From Methanobacteriota archaeon (lineage in GTDB: Archaea > JAADCQ01 > Methanopyri > Methanopyrales > Methanopyraceae): a stretch of DNA of 38,472 nucleotides. A model generated the notes under the pieces. That model worked only from the letters and a program-made list of their open reading frames with translations, did not search any database and was not told the DNA's origin. The DNA is taken from assembly GCA_027064305.1 (NCBI GenBank), contig JAMOPY010000030.1:1-38472 (forward strand), written 5' to 3'. Of this stretch, positions 10,996-14,045 are shown in pieces. The translations under genes were made by a program, and so were the position numbers. The stretch's first letter is position 1. Each line of letters begins with the position of its first letter.

Positions 10996-11020
10996 TATCG
11001 TTACGATTATTATAACGATC
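10996..11020 (-). repeat. tRNA-trailer element, copy 1 (inverted repeat)
   Basis: 25 bases beginning 7 bases after the 3' end of the CAU tRNA, read on the minus strand. It contains ATCGTTA and TAACGAT arms (7-bp stem) and matches copy 2 at 14021-14045 in 20 of 25 positions, including the run AATCGTAACGATA. A/T-rich in a GC-rich region. Probably a transcription terminator or 3'-processing signal; that function is inference. Confidence 0.7.
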
Positions 11021-11027
11021 CGGGCGG

Positions 11028-11102
11028 TGGGCCCGCCGGGATTTGAACCCGGGACCACGGGGTTATGAGCCCCGCGCTCTGACCGGACTGAGCTGCGGGC
11101 CC
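11028..11102 (-). tRNA. tRNA with CAU anticodon, probably tRNA-Ile2
   Basis: 75 bases, full cloverleaf: acceptor GGGCCCG/CGGGCCC, D arm GCTC/GAGC, anticodon stem CGGGG/CCCCG with loop CTCATAA, variable loop TGGTC, T arm CCGGG/CCCGG with TTCAAAT, discriminator A. No intron and no encoded CCA. G1-C72 rules against an initiator tRNA (A1-U72 in archaea); GGGCCCG with A73 resembles archaeal tRNA-Ile2, whose C34 is modified to agmatidine, but elongator Met is possible. Position 8 is C instead of the universal U; A14 is kept. A TATA-like GACTTTTGAC lies at 11131-11140 on the same strand. Confidence 0.93.
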
Positions 11103-11271
11103 GGGCCCCCGGTACGCCGGCGTTATCGCCGTCAAAAGTCTTGCGCGGATGGGGAGTTCAGCCTTGGGCGACCCGGGGCGCCGGGGATGAGCGGAGGCGG
11201 ACTTCCCGACCGCCCCACTTTCGAACGACTTATGCGGTCGCGGCCCGGGGACGGGCGGGGGTGGGTCGACG

Positions 11272-11586
11272 GTGTCGGAGCCCGTGCGGGAGCTGCTGCC
11301 CGAGCTGATGGGTCGGGTCCGCGAGGAGCTGGAGCCCGGCGAGCTGGCCCGGGCGATCCACGAGGAGCTGGAGCGGTTCGGGGAGGACTTCCGGGACCGG
11401 TACCTGGAGCGGCTCTCCGAGGCGGGGGTGGACGTGGACGAGTACCGGTTCCTGGTCGACGCCGTGTGCCGCTCGGTGGAGCGGGCGCTGAAGGACACGC
11501 GCTGGATCCTGGGCATGGTGGCCGAGCGGAGCTCCGAGCGCCTGCTGGAGCGCCTGGAGGAGCACCTGAAACTGAAGGAGGAGTAG
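11272..11586 (+). CDS. Hypothetical all-helical protein
   Basis: 104 residues, no recognised family. Rich in Glu, Arg and Leu with amphipathic repeats, predicted almost wholly alpha-helical; no Cys pairs, signal or membrane segment. GTG start six bases after GGGGGTGGG, with a TATA-like ACTTATGC at 11228-11235. The next gene starts 12 bases downstream and encodes a similar-sized helical protein, so the two are likely co-expressed and may be partners or diverged duplicates. Confidence 0.7.
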   Translation: MSEPVRELLPELMGRVREELEPGELARAIHEELERFGEDFRDRYLERLSEAGVDVDEYRFLVDAVCRSVERALKDTRWILGMVAERSSERLLERLEEHLKLKEE

Positions 11587-11598
11587 GGGCGGGATCCG

Positions 11599-11991
11599 AT
11601 GGCCGAGCGCCGGATGGTGTCGACGGACGAGGTCCGGGAGCGGCTCCTGGACCGCCTGATGAACCTGTGGTTCGAGGTGTACCTCTCGGAGCGGCTGGAG
11701 GTGGACGAGGACGCGGTGCGCGAGGCGATCGACACCGAGCTGCGGGAGCGCTTCGTGCCCGCCCTGTCCGACCGCGCCTGCGGCCTGCTGGAGGACTACC
11801 TGGAGGAGGAGATGTCGCGGGCGAGCCTCAGCCCGCCGGCGGACCCGGACGAGCTCGAGGAGACGCTGAACCTGGTGCTGGAGGTCGCCGACGAGGTGCT
11901 GCAGGAGGACCTGGAGCGGGTGGCCGAGCGGGCCGCCAGCCGGGCCTCGTCGCTGCTGCAGGACGCGATCCGGCGCGCCCTAACCCGATGA
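11599..11991 (+). CDS. Hypothetical all-helical protein
   Basis: 130 residues, no recognised family. Acidic, helical, with the segment REAIDTELRERF resembling RAIHEELERF of the preceding gene and a C-terminal AERAASRASSLL like AERSSERLLERL there, a weak hint of common origin. ATG start after GGAGTAGGGGCGGG. The 3' end overlaps the convergent trpA gene by 12 bases. Confidence 0.7.
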   Translation: MAERRMVSTDEVRERLLDRLMNLWFEVYLSERLEVDEDAVREAIDTELRERFVPALSDRACGLLEDYLEEEMSRASLSPPADPDELEETLNLVLEVADEVLQEDLERVAERAASRASSLLQDAIRRALTR

Positions 11992-12792
11992 GCGCCGCTC
12001 GTACCCCTCCCGCGCCCCCTCCGCCAGCCGCTCCGCGAGCTCCCTCACGCCCTCCTTCGCCTCCTCCAGGTCCTCCGACTCGTGGATGACGTCGATGAAG
12101 GCGGAGCCCACGATCGCCCCGTCCGCGCCCGCCGCCACGACCTCCCGCACGTGCCACCGCTTCGAGATCCCGAAGCCCACGGCGATGGGCACGTCCACGT
12201 AGCCCCGGACCCAGCGCACCAGCTCGAGCGTCCCCTCGGACAGGTCCTCCCGCGCCCCCGTGACCCCGTACCGGGAGATCACGTACACGAAGCCCGAGGC
12301 CCGCTCCCCGATCCTCTCGAGGCGCTCCTCGGTCGTGGAGGGGGCGACGAGGTAGATCACGTCGAGGTCCAGGTCCCGGGCCACCCGCCACACCTCGTCG
12401 GACTCCTCCACGGGCATGTCCGCGACGAGGATCCCCGATACGCCCGCCTCCGCCGCCGCCTCCAGGTACCGCCGGATCCCGTTCGCGTGCAGCGTGTTGT
12501 AGTAGCACAGGAGCACCACGGGCGCGAAGTCGGCAACCTCCTCCGCGACCTCCAGGCAGTCCCAGGGCGTGACCCCCGCCCGCAGCGCCTCGTCCACGGC
12601 CCGCTGGATCGTCGGCCCGTCCGCGATGGGCTCGGAGAAGGGCACGCCGAGCTCCAGGATGTCCACGCCGCCCCGGCACATCGCCCGGGCCAGCTCGACC
12701 GTCTCCTCCAGCCCCGGGTACCCGCAAGTTAGGTACCCGATCAACGCCCCGCGGCCCTCCCGGTGCACCCGCCGAAAGACCCGCTCGAGCAC
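11980..12792 (-). CDS. trpA: Tryptophan synthase alpha chain
   Basis: 270 residues from GTG 12792, which follows GGGGGA by eight bases; a TTG at 12819 would add nine residues. TrpA cleaves indole-3-glycerol phosphate to indole and glyceraldehyde-3-phosphate. The TIM-barrel enzyme shows EGRGALIGYLTCGYP, the catalytic Glu in ILELGVPFSEP, the catalytic Asp in IADGPTIQRA and the phosphate-binding GFGISKRWHV and GAIVGSAFI loops. No trpB or other trp gene is nearby, unlike in most genomes. Confidence 0.96.
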   Translation of the reverse strand: MLERVFRRVHREGRGALIGYLTCGYPGLEETVELARAMCRGGVDILELGVPFSEPIADGPTIQRAVDEALRAGVTPWDCLEVAEEVADFAPVVLLCYYNTLHANGIRRYLEAAAEAGVSGILVADMPVEESDEVWRVARDLDLDVIYLVAPSTTEERLERIGERASGFVYVISRYGVTGAREDLSEGTLELVRWVRGYVDVPIAVGFGISKRWHVREVVAAGADGAIVGSAFIDVIHESEDLEEAKEGVRELAERLAEGAREGYERRSSG

Positions 12793-12870
12793 GCGCTCGT
12801 CCCCCGGATGATGTGTCAACCGGGTCTACGAGGCGCGACCGATGAAGAGTGGGAGCGGTGGCTGACGGGA

Positions 12871-13833
12871 TTAATCGATCGCGGCTCCCGCCAGCACCCC
12901 GACCGCGTACGCCACGGCGTTGGCCGTCCGCATCGGCTCCGCCGTCGTCGGCCCCAGGTGCACCAGCGCGTCCGCCAGCCGCTTCGCCCGCCGGCTGAGC
13001 CCCTCCCGCTCCGAGCCCACGAGCAGGCACACCCGCTCCCCCGACCGCGCCAGCCGCACCAGCCGCTCCTCCCCCTCCGACCCCGTGGGGTGCAGCCCCA
13101 CCACCACGTCGAACCCCTCCACCGCCCGCTCCAACTCGTCCACCACCCGCAGGTCCACCAGGGACGCCGCCCCCATCTTCTCCCGCGCCCGCTCCAGACT
13201 CTCCCCCCGCGGCCGCACCAGGATCAGCCCACCCAGCCCCAGCGCCGCCGTCACCCGGATCAGGTCCGCGATCTCGTACTCCAGCTCCGGCCGCTCGCAG
13301 CAGACGTACACGTGCCGGAACGCGTCCGCCGGCAACCACCGCCGGCTCGGCTCCCGCAGCGTCGCCGGGGTCACCCCGATCAGGAACCCTTCCCCCGACA
13401 CGTGCACGTCCACGTACCGGTCCGGGTTGTCCAGGTCCACCGAGGCCCCCGTCTCCTCCCGCACCGCGTCCCCCACCGCCTGCGCGAGGTCCCGGGACGT
13501 GTAGGGCAGCGTCTTGTCCAGCCGCCGCGCGTCCACGGCGAACGTCTCGTCCGGACGGATCCGACCCCGCACCGCCTCCCGCGCCCGCTCCACCACGGTC
13601 TCCAGGTCCGGGGAGGACCCCTCCGCCCGCACGAGGATCACCCGCGAGACCTCCGGGAACTCCCGGCGCAGGGCGTCCACGTCCCCCGGTCCCTCCACCA
13701 CCACCCGCAACCGCCGCACGGGCTTCAGCGGGTCCGGGCGCGCCCGCAGCCCCAGCCGCCGCTCGATCTCCCGGGCCACGCGCTCCGTGTCCTCCGGCCG
13801 AACGTCCGGGGTCAGCGTCACCAGCGCCTCCAA
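12871..13833 (-). CDS. THUMP domain protein with SPOUT-like C-terminus (COG1818 type)
   Basis: About 320 residues. The THUMP RNA-binding motif is clear in the middle (SVDLDNPDRYVDVHVSGEGFLIGV). The C-terminal third resembles a SPOUT methyltransferase: LLVGSEREGLSRRAKRLADALVHLG, then PMRTANAVAYAVG, parallel to the SpoU SAM-binding knot. A tRNA-modifying enzyme or RNA-binding protein is likely. Start is uncertain: TTG 13833 has GGGGTG seven bases upstream, but the frame is open to TTG 13872 and GTG 13848. It is transcribed divergently from the neighbouring tRNA-Met gene. It is not the THUMP cytidine deaminase CDAT8, because no deaminase motifs are present. Confidence 0.75.
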   Translation of the reverse strand: MEALVTLTPDVRPEDTERVAREIERRLGLRARPDPLKPVRRLRVVVEGPGDVDALRREFPEVSRVILVRAEGSSPDLETVVERAREAVRGRIRPDETFAVDARRLDKTLPYTSRDLAQAVGDAVREETGASVDLDNPDRYVDVHVSGEGFLIGVTPATLREPSRRWLPADAFRHVYVCCERPELEYEIADLIRVTAALGLGGLILVRPRGESLERAREKMGAASLVDLRVVDELERAVEGFDVVVGLHPTGSEGEERLVRLARSGERVCLLVGSEREGLSRRAKRLADALVHLGPTTAEPMRTANAVAYAVGVLAGAAID

Positions 13834-13853
13834 CGCGGCGCACCCCACGTAAC

Positions 13854-13861
13854 CTTTTTTA
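13854..13861 (+). promoter_or_regulatory. TATA-like element near tRNA-Met and the THUMP gene
   Basis: CTTTTTTA stands out in GC-rich surroundings about 37-44 bases upstream of the tRNA-Met 5' end; a second weaker A-run is at 13870-13874. Read on the other strand (TAAAAAAG) it lies about 20-28 bases upstream of the TTG at 13833, so it could serve the THUMP gene instead. Not decisive for either. Confidence 0.35.
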
Positions 13862-13897
13862 GCCACCCACAAAAGGCGACCGGACGGCCCGCTGGAG

Positions 13898-14015
13898 GCC
13901 GGGGCAGCTTAGCCTGGTAGAGCGCGGGGCTCATAGGGCCCGATGACCCGGGGCGAGGGGGACTCGGGCCTGGGATACCCCGAGGTCCCGGGTTCAAATC
14001 CCGGCCCCGGCACCA
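13898..14015 (+). tRNA. tRNA-Met (CAU), intron-containing, CCA encoded
   Basis: Acceptor GCCGGGG/CCCCGGC, D arm GCTT/GAGC, anticodon stem CGGGG/CCCCG, T arm CCGGG/CCCGG with TTCAAAT, A73 and encoded CCA (14013-14015). After removing a 41-base intron (13936-13976) the anticodon loop is CTCATAA. GCCGGGG with G1-C72 fits elongator tRNA-Met rather than initiator. Base 8 is C, not U, while A14 and the G15-C48 pair are normal, implying C-to-U editing. A 25-base trailer element follows eight bases after A73. Confidence 0.92.
13936..13976 (+). other. Archaeal tRNA intron with canonical bulge-helix-bulge
   Basis: 41-base intron between positions 37 and 38. The splice sites form a textbook motif: loop bases C32-A35 (CUCA) pair with UGGG near the intron's 3' end; the 5' bulge is U36 A37 G and the 3' bulge A U A38, each cut after its second base. 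Intron GGCCCGA pairs with UCGGGCC (7 bp) as the flanking helix. Substrate for the tRNA-splicing endonuclease. Confidence 0.88.
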
Positions 14016-14020
14016 CCGGG

Positions 14021-14045
14021 AACCGTTACGAAAATCGTAACGATA
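14021..14045 (+). repeat. tRNA-trailer element, copy 2 (inverted repeat)
   Basis: Begins eight bases after A73 of tRNA-Met. It contains the perfect inverted repeat CGTTACGA-AAA-TCGTAACG (8-bp stem, 3-base loop) and shares 20 of 25 bases with copy 1 at 10996-11020, in the same orientation relative to the tRNA. Lies 15 bases before the DUF763 start codon. Confidence 0.7.

Follow-up and report, generated by a model that had tools for sequence, protein, structure and literature searches.

A conserved dyad at the 3' ends of tRNA and other stable-RNA genes in Methanopyrus, a putative DNA-level transcription terminator

A 25-bp dyad follows every readable tRNA gene in five Methanopyrus genomes. It is also found after almost every other stable-RNA gene and after a minority of protein genes. 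Its sequence and placement suggest that it is probably a sequence-specific terminator, acting at the level of DNA through a bound protein. The existence of the motif was already known: CGTTA(N)9TAACG has been reported about 10 bp after about half of the tRNA genes of M. kandleri AV19, where it was guessed to be the target of a 3'-maturation enzyme (BMC Genomics 2017;18:27, PMC5217627). The preliminary description knew of no described element of this kind for the group. What we did not find in the literature searched is the universality of the element, its use by other RNAs and by mRNAs, the evidence against a hairpin, and its reading as a terminator.

Two copies lie in the window, by which we mean the whole stretch of 38,472 nucleotides that was analysed; it is contig 30 of a 1.21 Mb genome in 50 contigs (the source genome, G000). 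The plus-strand copy, AACCGTTACGAAAATCGTAACGATA at 14021-14045, follows an intron-containing tRNA gene with a CAT anticodon (13898-14012, plus strand; Rfam RF00005, 49.2 bits) and scores 36.8 bits against a matrix derived from tRNA 3' flanks. Its RNA-polymerase-proximal half is 14021-14031, the spacer 14032-14034 and the distal half 14035-14045. The minus-strand copy, read on that strand as GATCGTTATAATAATCGTAACGATA, occupies 10996-11020 (34.4 bits; proximal half 11020-11010, distal half 11006-10996) after a tRNA-Met gene with anticodon CAT and a C at position 8 (11028-11102, minus strand; Rfam RF00005, 68.3 bits). This tRNA-Met was the only tRNA that ARAGORN identified in the window, the plus-strand gene having been missed. 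CCA is encoded at 14013-14015, directly 3' of the plus-strand tRNA. The minus-strand tRNA-Met is followed by CCG, not CCA (window 11023-11027); it is the sole CCA-less case among the readable tRNAs of the source genome, and its element lies 1 nt closer than any other there. As the preliminary description had noted, the two copies agree at 20 of 25 bases, have the same orientation relative to their tRNAs, start 7 nt (minus copy) and 8 nt (plus copy) past the discriminator, and form A/T-rich islands in GC-rich flanks. No other position in the window exceeds 10 bits with the tRNA-flank matrix. The maximum in ten random sequences with the dinucleotide statistics of the window was 2.9 bits, against 34 and 37 bits for the two copies, which places them far beyond chance.

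We compared the source genome with four others of the same genus, M. kandleri AV19 (G002) among them, detecting tRNA genes with Rfam and reading the 3' flanks of all. The alignment of sequences downstream of tRNA genes in this and related genomes, which the preliminary description had put forward as a check, recovered AATCGTTAYGANNNTCRTAACGATT without gaps in 142/142 readable 3' flanks (23, 31, 31, 31, and 26 per genome). The consensus of the dyad is AATCGTTAYGA-NNN-TCRTAACGATT, in which bases 5, 6, 20, and 21 (GT ... AC) are the same in all 142 copies. None of the 143 tRNA 5' flanks in the five genomes contains the element. Its start is at least 8 nt past the discriminator in 127/127 genes that encode CCA and 6-7 nt past it in 11/11 CCA-less genes, two ranges that do not overlap. 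Measured from the last encoded base, the start is at 5-8 nt in nearly all tRNAs, with a maximum of 13. AV19 contains 34 exact copies of CGTTA(N)9TAACG, and the wider 25-base form is found 6-12 nt past the discriminator in 31/31 of its tRNAs in the matrix set. Conservation is higher in the proximal half, on the polymerase side, than in the distal half. The core has 0.02-0.04 substitutions per site, compared to 0.47-0.59 in the 30 nt downstream, and the element must therefore be under strong constraint. In a separate observation, a C was present at position 8 in 119/140 tRNA genes detected across the five genomes. C-to-U editing is known from AV19 tRNAs, and the occurrence of C8 in most tRNA genes of all five genomes means that this editing is probably shared.

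The element was first noticed outside tRNA genes after SRP RNA and 5S rRNA, and each RNA family was then searched. All five 5S genes carry it (+7 to +12 nt), as do both SRP RNA genes (2/2, at +11), four of five RNase P RNA genes (+14 to +24), 4/4 16S genes (+77 to +81 nt beyond the mature end) and 3/3 23S genes (+108 to +144 nt beyond the mature end). A weaker copy is found at +6 after the tRNA-Sec gene of AV19. The RNase P RNA gene of G004 (L255; G004:C37:1632-1996) has no element within 250 nt and is the only stable RNA tested that lacks one. The 23S gene of G004 (L291) is followed by two overlapping tandem copies, at +108 and +131, offset by 23 bp. The rRNA elements are located beyond the strand of the processing stem, the position expected of a primary-transcript end. 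For 16S, the distance from stem to element is about 4-8 nt as read by eye, the computed 16S/23S duplex being over-extended into the element. The 16S, 23S, and 5S genes are unlinked in these genomes, each with its own downstream element (L291-L296, L114, L256-L260), and in G001 and G002 an element is also found between the 23S gene and the tRNA gene just upstream of it.

Protein genes account for many of the remaining copies. Counting further copies at a threshold of at least 20 bits gave forty-six, of which thirty-seven have the stop codon of an inward-reading gene within 300 bp. Twenty-nine of the thirty-seven are at -11 to +30 bp from the stop, and twenty-eight are at 11-30 bp; only two of the forty-six are inside predicted ORFs. 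Where a copy has a single inward-reading gene, both orientations are represented, with fourteen in the tRNA-like orientation and eleven in the opposite one. The genes ended by the element include those for McrB (mcrB), a thermosome subunit, rubrerythrin, polyferredoxin, L7Ae, and ArgRS. Most mRNAs lack the element, so it cannot be the sole means of termination. One copy (L104 1562-1586; G000:C25:6161) lies 27 bp past the mcrB stop, with 12 bp between it and the next ORF; it is apparently within the mcr operon, where it could possibly serve as a partial terminator that sets subunit ratios. Some strong copies are orphans, lying away from any gene 3' end (L242 1504-1528, at AV19 1104203; L065 514-538; L039 1488-1512; L108 3021-3045), and may sit at the ends of small RNAs that are not annotated. 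A search for C/D-box sRNAs as their owners, using simple box motifs, gave no convincing case.

The presence of the element after 5S, other rRNA, SRP RNA, RNase P RNA, and mRNA genes identifies it as a gene-end element and not a tRNA-maturation signal, and the Rfam scans and targeted searches of other RNA families rule out a signal confined to tRNAs. The preliminary description had suggested a dedicated tRNA terminator. The 3'-only placement and the use of the element by these other genes support the terminator part of this suggestion well; its restriction to tRNAs does not survive.

Termination at a T-tract would leave a signature that these flanks do not have. Runs of at least five T within 60 nt occur in 0/142 tRNA flanks, compared to 7/28 in four other archaea, these controls being less GC-rich. 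From element position 22 to +20, the longest T-run is at most four in all cases and at most two in 105/142, and T5 is not in excess over A5 at gene ends that lack the element.

The element is restricted to Methanopyri. Of the thirty stretches that matched ATCGTTAYGANNNTCRTAACGAT when 84,980 species were scanned, twenty-nine came from the two Methanopyri assemblies corresponding to G003 and G004; the remaining one, in a Crocinitomicaceae assembly, is apparently a chance match. Exact matches are thus confined to Methanopyri apart from one chance hit. The strict pattern misses the AV19 copies, which are too divergent. In viral contigs, a shorter pattern gave three exact matches, which is about chance level by estimate.

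The symmetry of the element would allow an RNA hairpin, as the preliminary description proposed for both copies. Folding at 37 °C does yield such a hairpin, with an energy of about -9 to -11 kcal/mol, but it is predicted to be unfolded at 98 °C, where the minimum free energy is 0, and the RNA stem is predicted to be unstable above about 85 °C. Methanopyrus, a group of archaea, grows at close to 100 °C. A functional RNA stem should also show covariation between partner positions and a preference for G-U over A-C. The counts for pair 9-17 are instead near independence (C-A 46, C-G 34, T-A 34, T-G 20), with C·A "mismatches" commoner than G·U. Genome-stratified odds ratios for pairs 9-17, 10-16, 11-15, and 4-22 are 1.4, 1.0, 0.5, and 2.1 (all |z| < 1.4). 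Pairs 3-23 and 8-18 are weakly and positively associated (z = 2.2 and 3.1), on the strength of three and two sequences, respectively. Changes on both sides between orthologous tRNAs numbered 3 and 11, against 4.9 and 10.0 expected. The lack of covariation and the unfolding at growth temperature together argue against a functional RNA hairpin. Constraint that acts on the sequence of both halves and not on their pairing is characteristic of a DNA-binding site with two-fold symmetry, and the evidence thus favors a symmetric site on the DNA to which a protein binds. Among the genes adjoining the copies examined, none was a candidate for the DNA-binding protein.

In the mechanism that we propose, the two-fold symmetric site, with its invariant GT ... 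AC within TCGTTAYGA-NNN-TCRTAACGA, would be the target of a sequence-specific protein, probably dimeric, positioned just past the gene end. RNA polymerase coming from the gene would be stopped at the site and then released, probably by a roadblock. Because the site starts 5-8 nt past the last encoded base, the RNA 3' end would fall at the mature end or a few nucleotides from it, with hardly any trailer or none. The bound protein is the likely effector given the symmetry of the site, its use in both orientations, and the absence of both pairing and a U-tract. Since RNA polymerase covers DNA well in front of its active site, there is little room for a roadblock 5-8 nt past the CCA. This spacing could be accommodated if the protein contacts mainly the invariant core, which is about 4 nt further on, or if the polymerase partly invades the site.

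A factor that may bear on how well such a block would work is TFS, the transcript cleavage factor that rescues stalled polymerase, which is reported from all archaea except M. kandleri (PMC7289017; PMC5715097). We infer that its absence would make the block effective; the reported absence is compatible with a roadblock and no proof of one. The meaning of the loss is not clear-cut, since TFIIS-like subunits can also assist termination, as in the case of Pol III in a reference listed in PMC5715097. A bolder version of this proposal, to which we give somewhat less than an even chance, is that in Methanopyri a dedicated DNA roadblock dependent on a protein has taken the place of the archaeal U-tract terminator, or works in addition to it, and sets the 3' ends of all tRNAs, and of nearly all other stable RNAs, very close to the mature ends. 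Such a system would be the counterpart, in archaea, of Reb1-type termination, and the loss of TFS may have made it possible.

The main rival to a protein-bound DNA site is a terminator that RNA polymerase itself, or aCPSF1/FttA, the general termination nuclease, would read directly in the nucleic acid as a weak A/U-rich island with or without a nascent hairpin, no dedicated DNA-binding protein being involved. Such a signal would fit an A/T-rich element amid GC-rich flanks, and a T-run is found immediately 3' of the 23S copies in G001 and G002. Termination of archaeal polymerases at U-rich sequence is also described (PMC7289017, PMC7515710, PMC8716108). However, T-tracts are essentially absent after the tRNAs, and a signal of composition would not be expected to have a strict dyad, an invariant GT/AC, and positions that are Y/R-degenerate but specific. 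A contribution from a nascent hairpin has against it the absence of compensatory pairing and the open structure at 98 °C. We therefore regard direct reading as unlikely, though a serious competitor. Less probable still is a signal for 3' processing or maturation at the RNA level, with a hairpin that is cut by or recruits a 3'-end enzyme, as envisaged in PMC5217627 and, for maturation, in the preliminary description. The close and regular spacing past tRNA ends would suit such a role, and PMC3695527 lists no 3'-trailer precursors and puts 3' processing first. Against it, the element also follows mRNAs, other stable RNAs, and CCA-less tRNAs, it lies 77-144 nt past the mature 16S and 23S ends, and the putative stem has the thermal instability and the excess of A-C over G-U without covariation described above.

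A DNA-bound protein need not be a terminator. It could be a boundary or replication-fork barrier that guards the 3' side of heavily transcribed genes against head-on replication or the spread of supercoils, with termination secondary or absent. A dyad at the DNA level would suit this account, and the element favors genes that are presumably highly transcribed (stable RNAs, mcrB, thermosome, rubrerythrin). But copies lie between convergent genes and within operons, they are placed 11-30 bp from stop codons as terminators would be, and no dependence on gene orientation was seen; we give a barrier only a small chance. An element with tens of near-identical copies per genome might also be a dispersed repeat, an uptake sequence, or the remnant of a mobile element that is intergenic by accident. 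This is excluded in practice by its presence in every tRNA 3' flank and no 5' flank, and by the copies being alike only in the 25-bp core, with unrelated flanks. In addition, all thirty-one exact half-sites in the source genome are inside known dyads (the reversed control gave 0). With no single half-sites outside dyads in that genome, an uptake sequence of the Haemophilus USS type, whose pairs serve as terminators, is ruled out.

On the current view, termination in archaea depends on U-tracts and aCPSF1. If the proposed role as a protein-bound terminator is correct, a lineage in which one palindrome, and no U-tract, closes all tRNA genes and nearly all other stable-RNA genes would stand as a clear exception. 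A new termination factor could be sought there in a simple system, and the reported absence of TFS in M. kandleri would gain a possible context. In practical terms, a 3' boundary of this kind could expose unannotated small RNAs, and the element could serve as a compact terminator for engineering hyperthermophiles.

Compared with known systems, the element is closest to the motif of PMC5217627, having the same CGTTA(N)9TAACG sequence, the same place, and the same lineage. That report covered one species and about half of its tRNAs, with nothing after other RNAs or mRNAs, whereas in the five species compared here the element is found after all tRNAs and almost every other stable-RNA gene; it also read the motif as an RNA signal, against which the pairing evidence presented here argues. 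With the bacterial intrinsic terminator, a hairpin followed by a U-tract, the element shares an inverted repeat downstream of genes. Unlike that terminator, it is A/T-rich, has no U-tract, stable stem, or compensatory changes, and is predicted to be unfolded at growth temperature. Like the U-tracts of archaeal termination by aCPSF1/FttA, it is found immediately 3' of genes with the same presumed outcome. It differs from them in being a specific dyad with no T-rich tract on the coding strand downstream of the gene (no T-tract of at least five after any of the tRNAs) and, in the exact-pattern scan, in its confinement to Methanopyri bar the one chance hit. In yeast, specific DNA-binding proteins are known to terminate transcription as roadblocks (reviewed in PMC10310618), and Reb1 is the comparison for how the element would work, both being short, specific duplex-DNA motifs at gene 3' ends. 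Unlike the Reb1 site, the Methanopyrus site is a dyad, and it serves tRNA, 5S, rRNA, SRP RNA, RNase P RNA, and mRNA genes in a cell with a single RNA polymerase.
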